Shown here one piece after another: positions 2 through 6,254 of a stretch of 41,564 nucleotides of DNA (positions are counted from its first letter, which is position 1; every line of letters starts with the position of its first letter). Source of the stretch: Acidimicrobiaceae bacterium. Lineage in GTDB: Bacteria > Actinomycetota > Acidimicrobiia > Acidimicrobiales > RAAP-2. Both the position numbers and the translations under genes were made by a program. A model generated the notes under the pieces. It was not told where the DNA came from. It worked only from the letters and a program-made list of their open reading frames with translations, and searched no databases. The stretch lies in the NCBI GenBank assembly GCA_013044405.1, contig JABEUR010000001.1, forward strand, positions 1 through 41,564, read 5' to 3'.

Positions 2-3000
2 AACACGGACACCGTCAGTACCGAGATCGCGGCACAGACCTCGGTCGTGAGCGAGACTCCCGTCGCCTACACGGGCGGCTCGGCCGTCCCGACGGGCACT
101 GCCGGCGTGGGCTCGGTGTTGACGGCCCCGGCCGACACGTGGAGTGGTTCCGCGGTCGTCGTCTCCTACCAGTGGTACGACTGCACCGGCCAAGTGGCCA
201 GCTCGTCGGCTGCGCTGCCGGTGAGTCCGACCTGTTCGACCAACGGTGGTAACGCCAGCACCTACACGCTTCTCGGCACTGACGCGGGCAAATACGTCGC
301 GGTCATGGAGACGGGTACCAACGCCGTCAGTAGCGCCACCCAGTTCTCACCCTCGACTCTCACCGCGGTCGTCGCCTCGCCACCGGTCGCTGGCGGAAGT
401 CCGGTACTCGGTACCGAGACCGTTGCGGGCACCGTCGTCAACATCGCCACTCCGGCAACTTGGACAGCCGGTAACCCCGGTCTGGGACAGACCACATATT
501 CCTACCAGTGGTACCGCTGCAGTTCCTTGCAGAATTCTGCTCCCTCGTCAGTGCCGGCGGGTTGCTCAGCGATCTCTGGTGCAATAGCAGATACCTACAC
601 CTTGACGCCCACGGACATGAACAACTACGTGCTGGTCGCGGTGACTGCCTCGAACGGCGTGTTGCCCAACCCGGTCCAGTACTCGGCCTCCAGCGCCGTG
701 ATCACCGGTACGGCCCCGACCAACGTCTCGGCTCCGACCGTCTCGGTCAGCTCGCCTCAGTTGGGCGTCGCCGAGACCTCGACGAATGGAACCTGGACCG
801 GGTCGCCAACAACGACCAGTGACGTCTATCAGTGGTACGCGTGCACGACCGCCGTCGTCGGTGGGCCCCTCACGGGTTCCACCCTCTCTAACGGTGGCTG
901 TGTCGCGATCGCCGGTGCCGTCGCGTCTTCCTACTCCCCGACCACCTCGGTCAGCGGCAAGTACCTGCTGATCGAAGTCACCCAGATCAACGGCATCACC
1001 CCGAACGGCGTCGCCGTCTCGTCGACCACCGGTTCGACCGTACCCGCAGGCACCGCGACCGGAGGAACTGGCACCTACCCGACGATCACGGCCGCCGGTG
1101 GCACGCTGACCGCTGCACCTGGAACATTCACCGGCGCACCAGCAGCCAGCAGTGACGCCTACCAGTGGTACCGTTGCTCGGCTTCGGTAACGATGACCGG
1201 AACCGGCACCTCGGGTGCACTCCCCCCAGTTGCCTCGAGTTGCGTGGCAATCGCTGGGGCGACGGCCACCACCTACAACCTGGTAACTGCCGACGTCAAC
1301 CAGTACATCCTGGTCGGCGACACGGAGAACAACGGTGTGGGCGGACCGTGGACCGAGTTCTCGAACTCGACGCCTCAGATCGTCGCGGTTGGACCGAGTG
1401 AAGTTGGCCCACCATCGTTGAGCGGTTCTGCTCAGGCCGGAACGGTCCTCACGACGTCCAACGGTACGTGGGGCGGCGTTCCGGCTCCGACCTACACCTA
1501 CCAGTACTACTCGTGCAACGGCACCTTCGGCGGTGGTTCGACCATCACCGGTCCGGTGTGCAACACGATCGGCACGGTGACCTCGAGTAACACCTTCACT
1601 CCGAGCGTGAGCCAGAACGGGCTGTACATCCTGGTCGGCGTCACCGCGTCCAACGGCGGCGGTTCAGCCACCTACTACTCGGCCACCTCGAACCAGGTCA
1701 CCGATGCGGCACCTCTGAACACCTCGCCACCAACGGTTCCGGCTACTTCGAGCACTTCAGTCGTCATGGGCTCGACCCCGGGCACCTGGACCGGTAACCC
1801 GGCTCCGACCTTCACCTACCAGTGGTTCTACTGCTCGTCACGAGTCGTCAACTCCTCGGTCTCGTTGACGGCCGGTTGTGCCGCCATCCCGGCCGCCACC
1901 GGACCGACCTACCAGCCATCAGGCACGTACGCCAATGACTACTTCTTGGTCTCGGTGACCGGCAGTAACGGTGTGATGTCGGGTCCGAACATCATCTACG
2001 TGACGGTCTATTCGGCCTCCACGCAGACGGCGCTCGTTTCGACACTCTCGATCACGGGTCTGACCATCAGTGGTACGGCATCGGTCGGTAACACCCTCAG
2101 CTCGACCGCGACCATCGTGAGCGCGGGAACCTACACGCCCACCTACCAGTGGTACGCGTGCACGGCTCCCGTGATCGCCTCGACGTCGGTGCCGGCCTAC
2201 TGCGCCGCCATCGTGGGCGCGAGCGGCCCGAGCTTTGCTCCCACCGCGACCCAGGCTGGCTACTACCTGACTTTGGCCGAGACGGTCACCAACATCTCGG
2301 GTAGCGCCGTCGCCGTCGCGCAGTCGACCGCGCTGGTCACCACCAGCATCCCCGGTGCCCCGACCGCGGTATTCGCTGTCGCCGGTGTCGGATCGGCAAC
2401 GGTCTACTGGGCGGCCCCCGCCACTGGTCTCGCCGCGACGTCGTACACCGTTACCTCGTCACCGGCCGGTGGATCGTGCACCTCAACGACGACGACCTGT
2501 GTCGTCACCGGTCTGCTGCACACGACCGCCTACACCTTCACGGTGACTGCGACCAATAGCTACGGCACCGGTCCGGCCTCACTGGCCTCACTGGCGATCA
2601 CGCCCACGGCCTCTATCCCAGCGGCACCCACCGCGGTTACGGCCGTTGGTTCGAACACGTCGGCGACGGTCACCTGGACCGCCGCGAACGCGAATGGTTC
2701 ACCGATCACCGCCTACACGGTCACCTCCTTTCCGGCCGGTGGTTCGTGCAGCGTCGTCGCGACGACGTGCGTGGTCAATGGACTGACCAACGGGACCGCT
2801 TACACCTTCTCGGTGACCGCGACGAACGCGTTGGGGGTTGGTCCGGCCTCACTGGCTTCTAACTCCGTGACGCCTAAGGCTCTCATCCCAGCAGCGCCGA
2901 CCGGTGTGTCGACGCTCTCGATGAACGGCAAGGTCACGGTTCACTGGACCGCTTCGGTCACCAATGGATCGACGATCACCGGATACCTCGTCACCGTGTC

Positions 3001-3427
3001 ACTCGGCACCGTCTCGAAGTCCTGTGTCACTACGGGTCTCACCTGTAGCGTGATCAGTCTGCCCAACGGCAAGACCTACAACGTGAGCGTCGTCGCCCAG
3101 AGTGCCGCCGGTAACTCACCGGCCGCCACGGCCACGGCCCAACTGCGCGGTACGCCAAGCGTCGTGTCGCTCGGAGGATTCTCCCGACTCCTCGGTGGAT
3201 TCGTCCTCAACATCCGTCCCCCCGCCAACAACGGTGGGCTGGTCGTCAAGTACTACCAGTACTCGATCAACGGCGGTCACACCTGGAAGGCCTCACGCTC
3301 ACGCAACTCACTCAAGTTGATCGCCGTGGGACTCCTGCACCACCACCGTTACATGGTGATGGTGCGTGCGGTGAACGCCGCCGGCGGTGGGACCCACTCG
3401 CCCTTGAAGGCCGTTTACACGAATTAA
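2..3427 (+). CDS. Large secreted Ig-like/FN3 repeat protein, 5' end outside window
   Basis: The reading frame is open from base 2 to a TAA at 3425-3427, so the true start lies upstream and only about 1,141 residues are visible. Seven repeats of about 106-113 residues carry a YQW(Y/F)xC-type motif (YQYY in the fifth), with motif codons at 167, 503, 827, 1160, 1499, 1817 and 2144. Each has a second Cys about 15-25 residues later and an ending like Y(I/L)LV-VT-NG, which suggests a disulfide-bearing beta-sandwich. From about 2347 three FN3 domains follow (about 2347, 2614 and 2881), two of them with a PAGGSC...TTCVV cysteine pair, and a last FN3-like unit from about 3150. The protein is rich in Ser, Thr, Ala and Gly. 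No sortase motif or membrane segment closes the C-terminus. A surface or matrix adhesin is plausible but inferred; no catalytic domain is visible. Confidence 0.85.
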   Translation, partial: NTDTVSTEIAAQTSVVSETPVAYTGGSAVPTGTAGVGSVLTAPADTWSGSAVVVSYQWYDCTGQVASSSAALPVSPTCSTNGGNASTYTLLGTDAGKYVAVMETGTNAVSSATQFSPSTLTAVVASPPVAGGSPVLGTETVAGTVVNIATPATWTAGNPGLGQTTYSYQWYRCSSLQNSAPSSVPAGCSAISGAIADTYTLTPTDMNNYVLVAVTASNGVLPNPVQYSASSAVITGTAPTNVSAPTVSVSSPQLGVAETSTNGTWTGSPTTTSDVYQWYACTTAVVGGPLTGSTLSNGGCVAIAGAVASSYSPTTSVSGKYLLIEVTQINGITPNGVAVSSTTGSTVPAGTATGGTGTYPTITAAGGTLTAAPGTFTGAPAASSDAYQWYRCSASVTMTGTGTSGALPPVASSCVAIAGATATTYNLVTADVNQYILVGDTENNGVGGPWTEFSNSTPQIVAVGPSEVGPPSLSGSAQAGTVLTTSNGTWGGVPAPTYTYQYYSCNGTFGGGSTITGPVCNTIGTVTSSNTFTPSVSQNGLYILVGVTASNGGGSATYYSATSNQVTDAAPLNTSPPTVPATSSTSVVMGSTPGTWTGNPAPTFTYQWFYCSSRVVNSSVSLTAGCAAIPAATGPTYQPSGTYANDYFLVSVTGSNGVMSGPNIIYVTVYSASTQTALVSTLSITGLTISGTASVGNTLSSTATIVSAGTYTPTYQWYACTAPVIASTSVPAYCAAIVGASGPSFAPTATQAGYYLTLAETVTNISGSAVAVAQSTALVTTSIPGAPTAVFAVAGVGSATVYWAAPATGLAATSYTVTSSPAGGSCTSTTTTCVVTGLLHTTAYTFTVTATNSYGTGPASLASLAITPTASIPAAPTAVTAVGSNTSATVTWTAANANGSPITAYTVTSFPAGGSCSVVATTCVVNGLTNGTAYTFSVTATNALGVGPASLASNSVTPKALIPAAPTGVSTLSMNGKVTVHWTASVTNGSTITGYLVTVSLGTVSKSCVTTGLTCSVISLPNGKTYNVSVVAQSAAGNSPAATATAQLRGTPSVVSLGGFSRLLGGFVLNIRPPANNGGLVVKYYQYSINGGHTWKASRSRNSLKLIAVGLLHHHRYMVMVRAVNAAGGGTHSPLKAVYTN

Positions 3428-3540: not shown

Positions 3541-4608
3541 ATGTCACGCCTGTTCAGTCCCCTTCGCATTCGCGGCCTCGAACTCGCCAATCGTGCGTGG
3601 GTGAGTCCCATGTGTCAGTACTCGGCCAGCGAAGGCGTGGTCGGGTCGTGGCATCAGGTCCACCTCGGTTCCTTTGCGCTGGGCGGCGCCGGTCTGGTCG
3701 TGGCCGAAGCGACCGCAGTCATGGCCGAAGGTCGGATCTCCGTGGCGTGTCCGGGAATCTGGAACGATGAGCAAGCTGAGGCGTGGTCGCGCGTGACGTC
3801 TTTCGCCCATTCCCAGGGCTCGAAGATCGCCGTCCAATTGGCCCACGCCGGACGCAAGTCCTCGACGTTGCGCCCCTGGGACGACCACCTCATCGCCGGC
3901 GCCTCGGAGGGAGGATGGCGGGCTCAAGCTCCCAGTGCGCTGGCGTTCGAGGGCTACCCGGTACCCCACGAGCTCAGCCCGGTAGAGATCGACGCCGTGG
4001 TCGCCAACTTCGCTTCGGCCGCACGCCGAGCGATCGACGCGGGCTTTGACGCCCTCGAGGTCCACGCCGCCCACGGGTATCTCCTGCACCAGTTCATGTC
4101 GCCCATCTCGAACCAACGTAGCGATCACTTCGGGGGGAGCTTCGAGAACCGCATTCGCCTGACGCTGAAGGTGCTCGACGCGATGCGCGCGGTCATGCCC
4201 GAGACCATGCCGCTGTTCGTGCGGATCTCCGCCACGGACTACGTCACCGGTGGATGGGACGTCGAGCAGTCAATTGAGCTCAGCCGTCAAATGAAGGTCC
4301 ACGGGGTCGACCTCGTGGACGTCTCATCGGGGGGCAACGTACACGGCGTACGCATCGAGCTACGTCCGGGCTATCAAGTGGACTTCGCCTCGAGCATCCG
4401 CGAAGGGGCCGGGGTCTTGACGAGCGCGGTAGGCCTGATCACCGACGCCCACCAGGCAGAATCAATTCTCGAAGCGGGCCGGGCCGATGCCGTCATGCTC
4501 GCGCGCGCCTTCTTGCGAAATCCCCACTGGGCCAGCCAGGCGGCCGAGGAACTGGGGGTCGTCATCGACTGGCCCGCGCAGTACGCTCGCGCACGGACGG
4601 TCCATTGA
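3541..4608 (+). CDS. Old Yellow Enzyme family NADH:flavin oxidoreductase (YqjM/NamA type)
   Basis: This 355-residue protein is an FMN-dependent TIM-barrel ene-reductase of the YqjM class, which reduces activated C=C bonds with NAD(P)H. Visible markers are SPMCQYS with Cys25 (the redox-tuning Cys of YqjM) and Tyr27, the QLAHAGRK segment, the substrate-binding pair His175/His178 in EVHAAHGYLLHQF, and the NQRSDHFGGSFENR stretch typical of the family. Length matches the YqjM class (about 340 residues). The ATG start fits the family N-terminus (RLFSPLRIRG). No convincing Shine-Dalgarno sequence precedes it. It stands alone between two hairpins, so it is probably monocistronic. The physiological substrate cannot be read from sequence. 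Confidence 0.93.
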   Translation: MSRLFSPLRIRGLELANRAWVSPMCQYSASEGVVGSWHQVHLGSFALGGAGLVVAEATAVMAEGRISVACPGIWNDEQAEAWSRVTSFAHSQGSKIAVQLAHAGRKSSTLRPWDDHLIAGASEGGWRAQAPSALAFEGYPVPHELSPVEIDAVVANFASAARRAIDAGFDALEVHAAHGYLLHQFMSPISNQRSDHFGGSFENRIRLTLKVLDAMRAVMPETMPLFVRISATDYVTGGWDVEQSIELSRQMKVHGVDLVDVSSGGNVHGVRIELRPGYQVDFASSIREGAGVLTSAVGLITDAHQAESILEAGRADAVMLARAFLRNPHWASQAAEELGVVIDWPAQYARARTVH

Positions 4609-4636
4609 AACTATGGGGATTGCACGCGGGTACGGC

Positions 4637-4673
4637 TTGACCGAGGCTCGGCCGCCGAGCGTCCGTCAATTTG
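4637..4673 (+). terminator. Hairpin terminator after the OYE gene
   Basis: The stem combines TTGAC/GTCAA (4637-4641 with 4665-4669) and GCTCGG/CCGAGC (4646-4651 with 4655-4660), separated by a 4x4 internal loop. A short T run follows at 4670-4672. It lies about 30 nt after the stop codon at 4608. Confidence 0.6.
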
Positions 4674-4743
4674 GCAGACGCGCCGCCCACTGATTCTCAA
4701 AGCCCGACCGTGATCAGGTTCACGGGGTAGAATTTCACAAACA

Positions 4744-4834
4744 GGTTGGTCTGGCGGCCAACCAGCATGGGACCCAATGGGGGTGCCCAGGCCAAATGAA
4801 GCACCGAGAGAGGGTGATTCCAACCGTTGGTTGG
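4744..4834 (+). promoter_or_regulatory. Structured leader with two alternative hairpins, candidate riboswitch or attenuator
   Basis: The leader of the downstream oxidoreductase contains GGTTGG (4744-4749), CCAACC (4758-4763), CCAACC (4820-4825) and GGTTGG (4829-4834). Hairpin A (4744-4763) extends to 8 bp including one G-U pair. Hairpin B (4820-4834) has a 3-nt loop and ends 7 nt before the ATG at 4842. Each arm can also pair with the distal copy, so mutually exclusive folds are possible. Between them are further TGGG/CCCA segments (4768-4789) and a CACC/GGTG pair. I do not recognise a known riboswitch class. Confidence 0.45.
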
Positions 4835-4841
4835 ACACGAT

Positions 4842-6254
4842 ATGGAGAAGAAGGATCCCTTCGTCTTGCGTCACCTCGCCGAAGTCCAGCCAGAACTCTG
4901 GTGGCTGGACTCGGACCCGCTGGAGCCCGCGCCCCACTCAGCGCTCATCGGTGACATGGGAGCAGACTTGTGCATCGTCGGCGCCGGCTACACGGGACTG
5001 TGGACCGCGCTGCTGGCCAAGGAACGTGAGCCCACCCGTGAGGTGGTCATCCTCGAACAGTTCGAGACTGGCGCCGGGGCGTCAGGGCGTAATGGCGGCT
5101 TCTGCTCGGCGTCGCTCACCCACGGATTCGCCAACGGCATTCGTCGTTTTCCCCACGAGATGGCCCTCATAGACCGGCTCGGACGTGAGAACCTGGACGC
5201 CATCGAAGAGACCGTGCGGCGATACGCGATCGAGTGTGATTTTGAGCGAACCGGAGAACTCCAGGTGGCGGTCGAAGAATGGCAGTTCGAGAACCTGAAG
5301 GAGCAGGCCCGACTTCGAAACGAGATGGGCGACCACGTCGTCACATTGACCCGCGAGGAGGTTCAAGCACGAGTCCACTCCCCCTCGTATGTCGGAGCGA
5401 CCTACGACCACGACGGAACGGCCCTGGTCGATCCGGCACGTCTCGTTTGGGGACTCGAACAGGCCTGTATCTCGCTCGGTGTCAAGATCTTCGAGAACTC
5501 CAAGGTGGAGTGGCTCGAGGACGTCGACGACGCCGTTCGGGTCCACACCCCCTACGGCGCGGTCACTGCCGCGCGAGTGGCGCTGGCCACCAACGTCTTT
5601 CCCTCCCTCGTACGCTCGGCGAGAAAGTACATCGTGCCGGTCTACGACTACGCACTGGTCACCGAACCGCTGAGCGAGGCACAGTTGGCCGACATTGGTT
5701 GGCAGGGGCGCGAAGGCATCTCCGATGCCGGAAACCAGTTTCACTACTACCGACTCACCAACGACAACTCGATCCTCTGGGGCGGCTACGACACGATCTA
5801 CAAGTTTCGCGGCAAAGTGCGACGTGAGTACGAGTTCAACGCCGACACCTACGCCACGCTCGCCAAGCACTTCCTCGAGACCTTCCCCCAGCTAGCCGGC
5901 ATCAAGTTCACCCACGCGTGGGGTGGCGCCATCGACACCTGCACCCGGTTCTCCCCCTTTTGGGGCACCTCGCACCGTGGCAAGGTGGCCTACGTCTTGG
6001 GTTACACCGGTCTGGGCGTCGCGTCGACCAGGTTCGGGGCGGCCACGATGCTCGACCTGCTCGACGGCGAACAGACCGATCGCACGAGGCTCGCCATGGT
6101 ACGCAAGCGTCCCCTGCCCTTCCCACCCGAGCCGTTTCGTTGGGTCTTCATCCAGATCACCAAGGCGGCCATCACGCGTGCCGACGCCCATCAGGGACGG
6201 CGCAACCTCTGGCTGAAGTTCCTCGACGCACTGGGTGTTGGATTCGACTCGTAG
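4842..6254 (+). CDS. FAD-dependent oxidoreductase, DAO family
   Basis: This 470-residue flavoenzyme has the dinucleotide-binding motif GAGYTG at residues 47-52 in CIVGAGYTGLWTALLAK, the GASGRNGGFC segment that follows the FAD fold in DAO-type amine/amino-acid oxidases, and a C-terminal GYTGLGVASTRFGA motif that closes the FAD site. Relatives are often annotated as gamma-glutamylputrescine oxidoreductase or glycine/D-amino acid oxidase. The substrate is not evident here. I chose the ATG at 4842; a TTG at 4827 is in frame but lies inside the leader hairpin. The gene ends 7 bp before the convergent SIMPL gene. The leader suggests post-transcriptional control. Confidence 0.85.
   Translation: MEKKDPFVLRHLAEVQPELWWLDSDPLEPAPHSALIGDMGADLCIVGAGYTGLWTALLAKEREPTREVVILEQFETGAGASGRNGGFCSASLTHGFANGIRRFPHEMALIDRLGRENLDAIEETVRRYAIECDFERTGELQVAVEEWQFENLKEQARLRNEMGDHVVTLTREEVQARVHSPSYVGATYDHDGTALVDPARLVWGLEQACISLGVKIFENSKVEWLEDVDDAVRVHTPYGAVTAARVALATNVFPSLVRSARKYIVPVYDYALVTEPLSEAQLADIGWQGREGISDAGNQFHYYRLTNDNSILWGGYDTIYKFRGKVRREYEFNADTYATLAKHFLETFPQLAGIKFTHAWGGAIDTCTRFSPFWGTSHRGKVAYVLGYTGLGVASTRFGAATMLDLLDGEQTDRTRLAMVRKRPLPFPPEPFRWVFIQITKAAITRADAHQGRRNLWLKFLDALGVGFDS

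Follow-up and report, generated by a model that had tools for sequence, protein, structure and literature searches.

The window analyzed here is a 41,564-nucleotide stretch of an Acidimicrobiaceae genome. At 4842..6254 on its plus strand, it encodes a DAO-family, FAD-dependent oxidoreductase (PF01266, E-value 3e-58) with a length of 470 aa when read from the ATG. In NCBIfam, only sub-threshold relatives are detected (the best one, TIGR03329, scores 240.7 bits against a cut-off of 632.8), so that family assignment leaves the substrate unfixed. An old-yellow-enzyme homologue is encoded upstream and a SIMPL protein downstream, on the other strand; the gene beyond the latter we take, from its sequence, to be an acetyl-CoA synthetase. 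No pot genes are present within about 1.5 kb of the oxidoreductase gene. The window also contains, at 47-3427, an ORF of 1126 aa that consists of repeated segments and probably encodes a surface protein.

In the freshwater acI-type relatives (among the best 80 of 389), potB and potC are located directly upstream of the orthologous gene in 18 cases and a ureohydrolase gene follows it in 17. These families were named from the L101 locus, where potA (TIGR01187) and agmatinase (TIGR01230) pass the curated cut-offs and potB scores below its cut-off. The combination of potABC upstream with an agmatinase-like gene downstream makes a role in polyamine catabolism likely, and the oxidoreductase, which occurs in actinobacteria of soil and freshwater, is probably a polyamine-catabolic enzyme, as judged from gene context. 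The potB and potC genes also adjoin the orthologue (55-58% identity) in 11 genomes of family f52, and the L182 locus includes both together with a ureohydrolase gene; in the other outgroup loci that were fetched, neither potB/potC nor a ureohydrolase gene is found within about 1.5 kb. Family f52 appears to be Streptomyces-like, and its gene would be comparable to SCO5671. According to the available text of PMC5403932 and PMC8998196, SCO5671 is a predicted gamma-glutamylpolyamine oxidoreductase, SCO5667-70 are a predicted polyamine ABC transporter, and SCO5671 shows no expression with putrescine or cadaverine and weak expression with spermidine.

The folded leader and its Shine-Dalgarno sequence

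A sequence-only reading of the locus had described a structured leader RNA in front of the oxidoreductase gene, a description that is supported by the predicted fold, by covariation among relatives and by the PF01266 match. It started from four hexamers, which are indeed present in the order GGTTGG (4744-4749), CCAACC (4758-4763), CCAACC (4820-4825) and GGTTGG (4829-4834) and span 91 nt. The two local hairpins proposed on this basis are the dominant folds, with probabilities of at least 0.97 for all hexamer pairs and 0.99 for the six in the first hairpin, H1 (4744..4763, plus strand; 8 pairs, loop 4752-4755, -11.6 kcal/mol). The second hairpin, placed at 4820-4834 and ending 7 nt before the ATG, was recovered with one additional pair: H3 (4819..4835, plus strand) joins 4819-4825 with 4829-4835 in 7 pairs around the loop 4826-4828 and folds with -9.0 kcal/mol, and ATG 4842 lies 7 nt past 4834. 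An imperfect hairpin, H2 (4765..4792, plus strand), is part of both the MFE and the centroid fold; from its similar placement it would correspond to the UUCGnn/nnCGAA hairpin of the relatives, although the window lacks the TTCG anchor. Compared with dinucleotide shuffles, the fold of the 99-nt segment 4744-4842 has a z-score of -2.9 (2 of 200 shuffles as good), and that of the 121-nt segment 4740-4860 is less clearly beyond expectation (z -1.5; 19 of 200).

H3 is preceded by an extended Shine-Dalgarno (SD) sequence, AGAGGGTGAT (4809..4818, plus strand), with the core GGTGA at 4813-4817. The SD is complementary to the 16S rRNA 3' end of a same-genus genome, GGCTGGATCACCTCCTTTCT; a search for the 16S tail pattern in the window's own assembly produced no match. 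The distance from GGTGA to the ATG in the window is 24 nt, 17 of which are occupied by H3, so that the effective distance is 7 nt. Across 69 distinct leaders, the linear distance of 20-27 nt is reduced to 4-10 nt (median 7, and exactly 7 in 31 of the 69) by removal of the hairpin, which is 14-21 nt long and has a median stability of -8.3 kcal/mol on its own. In the window and in these 69 leaders, the SD is thus located more than about 15 nt from the AUG, as in phage T4 genes 25 and 38, and a hairpin with a covarying stem between the two restores a normal distance. Hairpin length explains the linear spacing only in part (r 0.54), which counts against reading the hairpin as a looped-out spacer. 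The strongest anti-SD pairing is found 17-25 nt before the ATG in 74 of the 75 distinct upstream sequences, and a weaker site near the ATG (below -5 kcal/mol) is also present in 14 of the 75.

A possible 3-pair extension of H3 (4814..4838, plus strand), in which GTG 4814-4816 of the SD would pair with CAC 4836-4838 and AU would be bulged between, appears in the predicted fold of a 38-nt segment from the window. The three bases after H3 permit this pairing in 26 of the 69 rows and not in the other 43. In a longer window fold, CACC 4802-4805 is predicted to pair with GGTG 4813-4816, another weak cover of the SD. Pairing of SD bases with the preceding CACC or with the CAC after H3, if it occurs, would hinder docking and counts against the looped-out reading. 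The stretch from 4807 to 4825, that is, the SD and the 5' arm of H3, is nearly complementary to the final 19-20 nt of 16S rRNA, which may reflect chance, origin or extended docking; the resemblance of the arm likewise counts against the looped-out reading.

A promoter scan of the window yielded no sigma-70 site, and the single terminator-like site in the scan, on the minus strand, is H1 read in reverse. A probable -10 region, GGTAGAAT (4726..4733, plus strand), conforms to an RGTAnnnT-like motif that was picked after inspection of the leaders. This motif is present 70-125 nt upstream of the ATG in 52 of 80 leaders, and a control stretch contains it in 1 of 77. Transcription would be expected to start near 4740.

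Conservation and origin of the hairpin arrangement

Protein relatives are present in 49 of the 61 genomes searched, and 30 loci, the window's included, were read; a named scan of the best 80 of 389 relative stretches gave, with the window, 81 leaders. A hairpin of at least 4 pairs between GGTGA and the ATG was detected in 77 of these 81 leaders and, in a second scan, in 76. L054 also has the hairpin, which the script missed because of a second GGTGA downstream; L109 has none and carries AAGGA 7 nt before the ATG, as seen by eye. At best a weak hairpin is found in L085, L091 and L166 (the latter encoding the same protein as L091), which counts against the looped-out reading. These three loci form one small branch with GGTGGGTGAGG and a weak hairpin before the ATG, apparently a decayed module or a variant. 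When the same fixed criteria for an SD-hairpin-start arrangement, with thresholds chosen after the leaders were seen, are applied throughout, they select 76 of the 81 starts of the DAO gene (window and best 80 of 389 relatives), 8 of 278 first starts of neighbor genes (17 if any early ATG or GTG is allowed) and 262 of 7204 other ATGs.

Covariation of H3 was assessed in alignment A3, the 69 rows that are left of the 81 when L109, L085 and L091 (no or weak hairpin) and then duplicates are removed. In A3, GGTGA is invariant, 86.9% of the H3 cells are paired, double changes occur at 7 of 7 pairs, the covariation score is reached by none of 500 shuffles, and slid stems pair in 24-52%. Some short-spaced rows were misplaced by MAFFT, which biases the result against the stem; mismatches other than A-C occupy 57 of 474 H3 cells, in part through misalignment, and count against the looped-out reading. 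The excess of G-U over A-C cells (37 vs 5 in H3, 12 vs 7 in H1, 6 vs 0 in H2) is as expected of sense-strand RNA. H1 and H2 covary in A4, which consists of 33 distinct sequences from 34 hand-picked Acidimicrobiales-type leaders bearing a TTCG-type H2 (the rest of the 81, the window among them, being left out): double changes are seen at 8 of 12 pairs, 86.4% of the cells are paired, and the score is matched by 0 of 500 shuffles. H1 in this set lies at a similar place and differs in sequence from that of the window, the arms in relatives often being GGCCGG/CCGGC. Unguided RNAalifold on A2 (20 of the 30 rows) recovered H3 and four pairs of H2, and not H1.

Among 23 outgroup orthologues (L169-L191, 51-58% identity), 20 have a strong SD at most 10 nt from a candidate start; at ATGs close to the aligned position, the hairpin arrangement is absent from all 23. 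In L183 and L186, hairpin-type sites are found only at GTGs further upstream, and the ATG of L186 has a normal SD; L170 and L189 have neither a normal SD nor a hairpin by the test, and AGGGAG is seen by eye 9 nt before the ATG of L170. In family f7, which belongs to the window's own order, inspection by eye places GGTGA 4-8 nt before a candidate start in 7 of 8 rows; core SD and distance would then be those of the looped-out hairpin leaders. This comparison shows that the effective spacing calculated for the hairpin leaders resembles that of outgroup genes without the hairpin.

A protein tree of 107 rows (the 81 loci and L166-L191) was built by a quick method and includes some long branches. 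All 80 hairpin rows fall into one 84-row clade (SH-aLRT 99), and three changes suffice to explain their distribution; this pattern fits a single origin, e.g., one gain and two losses. The arrangement is present in L163-L165, L167 and L168 and absent in L166 (L166-L168 were labelled by eye first, and rescoring agreed). Nested within the clade are 19 freshwater rows, 18 of which retain SD-H3 with a different upstream sequence, which identifies SD-H3-ATG as the core unit. MAG records named Bifidobacterium breve, Saccharibacteria, Acidobacteria and Streptomycetaceae (L105, L064, L037, L094 and others) nest in the Acidimicrobiales/acI part of the tree; wrong labels are a likelier explanation than gene transfer.

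Further copies were sought with the model R1, which at E <= 0.001 has 29 matches, spread over 28 of 61 genomes; 28 of the matches precede a DAO gene, and one lies elsewhere (G032:C16:62899-62943, E 1.3e-4, viewed by eye). R1 missed the DAO-gene leader in G011 and G013 and also in G225, where a different test did detect the arrangement. A match of about 19.2 bits recurs, and the single copy viewed runs antisense to a tRNA; four more weak matches are present. Among 396 genomes of the phylum, 7 have a match at E <= 0.001. Four of these belong to the same genus (the window's own genome included), with all their matches before the DAO gene, and three matches lie elsewhere, in L156 inside an open frame and in L157 and L158 before ATGs that stay open for only 2 and 59 aa. 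Within the reach of R1, there is thus no sign of a regulon-wide signal. At gathering scores, Rfam identifies three tRNAs only in ten loci; at E <= 10, an RT-13 match in L095 (20.4 bits, cut-off 69.1) and an Xist_exon1 match in L048 (8.3 bits) were rejected.

The freshwater acI-type leaders contain an additional feature, a near-invariant 31-nt block, GGGGTNGGACTCCGGAGGACCCGGGNCAACT, that follows a covarying hairpin (e.g., L101:2880-2952) in 13 of 19 cases (L101, L083, L086-L088, L092-L096, L100, L103 and L105; not in L102, L107-L109, L111 and L112). Double changes affect 11 of its 28 predicted pairs, 10 of them in the hairpin. In each of 8 genomes, the core of the block is present as a single copy, and for L095 Rfam yields no credible match. 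The block and hairpin are a candidate second RNA element before the DAO gene. A pairing of the block with the SD and H3 suggested by RNAalifold was rejected, given that the partner varies while the block is constant except for one compensated column (two rows).

A probable looped-out spacer and the alternatives

We estimate at about 0.75 the probability that the leader serves translation initiation through a looped-out spacer (SD-H3-ATG) of the T4 gene 25/38 kind. The sequence-only reading saw in it the layout of a translational on/off switch, but H3 does not hide the start: it sits between a strong SD and the ATG and closes the gap. The 30S ribosome would dock through pairing of its anti-SD with the long SD (4809-4818), whose core, at 24 nt from the ATG, would be too far away for ordinary initiation; the folded H3 would take up 17 nt and bring the core to an effective 7 nt; and the ribosome would accept H3 in the folded state, as reported for T4 genes 25 and 38 in the available text of PMC3014915. 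We infer that folded H3 is required for, or tunes, initiation. The simplest reading is a constitutive accommodated site that perhaps tunes the level of expression. H1 and H2, conserved RNA structures in a subset of the relatives, may function as a standby site, in stability or as a regulatory domain, and their covariation in the hand-picked subset makes further regulation, perhaps polyamine-responsive, possible.

Such regulation could take the form of a metabolite-responsive switch of distance, in which polyamines or another ligand stabilize H3 with its bulged extension, or are sensed by H1 and H2, and thereby turn translation on. The potABC and agmatinase-like context in freshwater actinobacteria, the potB-potC pairs in the 11 f52 genomes and L182, the covariation of H1 and H2 in A4 and the extension possible in a minority of rows are all compatible with this proposal, as is the occurrence of distant SDs and bulged stems in E. 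coli polyamine-modulon mRNAs (PMC7177335, PMC4191411, available text). However, a ligand is not needed to form H3, which is stable on its own, the extension is absent from most rows, and the window's gene has no pot neighbors; moreover, neither an Rfam riboswitch match, nor a recognizable ligand domain, nor a convincing copy before other genes was found. We consider this switch unlikely. Its specific version, in which the substrate of the oxidoreductase itself stabilizes the bulged H3 (or acts via H1 and H2) and so sets the SD-AUG distance, is a rather unlikely proposition; if it is true, translation would be regulated by a ligand through geometry rather than through hiding of the SD, a single-gene version of the E. 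coli polyamine-modulon effect.

Translation might instead begin at the TTG noticed within the hairpin by the sequence-only reading, with H3 merely overlapping the start. This codon is in frame at 4827, 9 nt after the SD core and hence well spaced in the window, and 36 of 74 distinct upstream sequences have some in-frame ATG, GTG or TTG between the SD and the ATG. However, these 36 include GTGs within the SD itself, the other 38 have no such codon, so that the alternative start is not conserved, the SD-ATG distance is not always a multiple of three, and the ATG is present in 81 of 81 loci (three starts, those of L064, L086 and L095, were placed by hand); we consider this start very unlikely. 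The same low standing applies to a hyper-extended SD, in which the 5' arm of H3 would join the SD in pairing with 16S rRNA as far as helix 45. The arm matches GGCUGGA in at least 6 of 7 positions in 61 of 69 rows (a raw count, at offsets 0-2 and with G-U allowed), but the full match is found in 15 of 69 only, both arms covary, and none of the 69 rows lacks the hairpin (those without it having been dropped beforehand). The rRNA strand concerned is itself paired in helix 45.

The exchange of partners between the arms of H1 and H3, which the sequence-only reading proposed from the complementary words in the window, is highly improbable. The exclusive distal pairings are 6.8-9.6 kcal/mol worse (-39.1 and -36.3 vs -45.9) and have probabilities of about 1e-4 or less; the H1 arms of relatives differ; and across 76 leaders, sequences complementary to the H3 arms occur upstream about as often as chance predicts (10 vs 8.9 expected for the 5' arm, 29 vs 27.5 for the 3' arm). 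The energies and the chance-level complementarity in relatives lead us to reject this switch. The covariation anticipated in orthologous leaders materialized for H3 and, in a hand-picked subset, for the two upstream hairpins, but not for the long-range pairs; the conserved, mutually exclusive structures typical of a riboswitch are not seen for distal pairing of the H3 arms, the one alternative proposed. The likeness to S-box RNAs also failed to hold, as a search of 4600-4900 against Rfam gave no match, even with the threshold relaxed to E <= 10. Least probable of all is that H3 acts at the DNA level, as the operator of a repressor that binds at the start codon. The inverted repeat at the gene start might suggest this, but the stem sequence and the loop (3-6 nt) vary without loss of pairing, and DNA symmetry would not favor the excess of G-U over A-C (37 to 5).

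Under the looped-out reading, a ready-made evolutionary experiment is at hand: double changes affect 7 of 7 stem pairs, and the looped-out distance remains within 4-10 nt. Together with the near-start SD, without the hairpin, of most relatives outside the clade, these double changes make the spacer rule, and possible regulation, directly testable. Gene finders that use SD spacing could misplace such starts.

Comparison with known systems

The spermidine riboswitch, a SAM-I variant, is a cis-regulatory RNA of polyamine genes according to the available part of PMC10853860. RNAs of that class act by premature termination before biosynthetic genes and in this differ from the window leader, which has no Rfam match. 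The thrS hairpin of E. coli lies upstream of the SD-AUG stretch, not within it as H3 does. Like the window leader, thrS has a hairpin inside the ribosome binding region, and at its split site the ribosome is said, in the available text of PMC3936740, to accommodate this long hairpin without unfolding it.

In the E. coli polyamine modulon (oppA, rmf, cpxR, rpoE), a distant SD is combined with a bulged stem-loop, and spermidine is thought to reposition such SDs, as far as the available text of PMC7177335 and PMC4191411 goes. The window leader shares with these mRNAs the distant SD, a stem-loop in the initiation region and a link to polyamines. The modulon stems are bulged and their polyamine dependence was measured, whereas H3 is a perfect, stable stem for which an AU-bulged extension is possible in 26 of 69 rows.

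The closest parallel is found in phage T4, where structure reduces the SD-AUG distance from 27 to 11 nt in gene 25 and from 22 to 5 nt in gene 38 (PMC3014915, available text); in the window, structure between SD and AUG similarly gives a working distance, from 24 to 7 nt. Function was tested in T4, whereas the window-type leader is known from sequence comparison and folding. In addition, window-type leaders change on both sides at 7 of 7 pairs and are often preceded by more conserved structures, and the window leader is chromosomal, precedes a metabolic gene and is preserved across a clade that comprises Acidimicrobiales-type and freshwater acI-type genomes. RNA structure that brings an SD to the start had been demonstrated in phage T4 and suggested for some genes of the E. 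coli polyamine modulon; a literature search of open-licence PMC, dependent on the search words, retrieved no conserved chromosomal family of looped-out SDs. Thus, the kind of device is already known from these systems, and its occurrence as a conserved chromosomal family seems, within that search, to be new.
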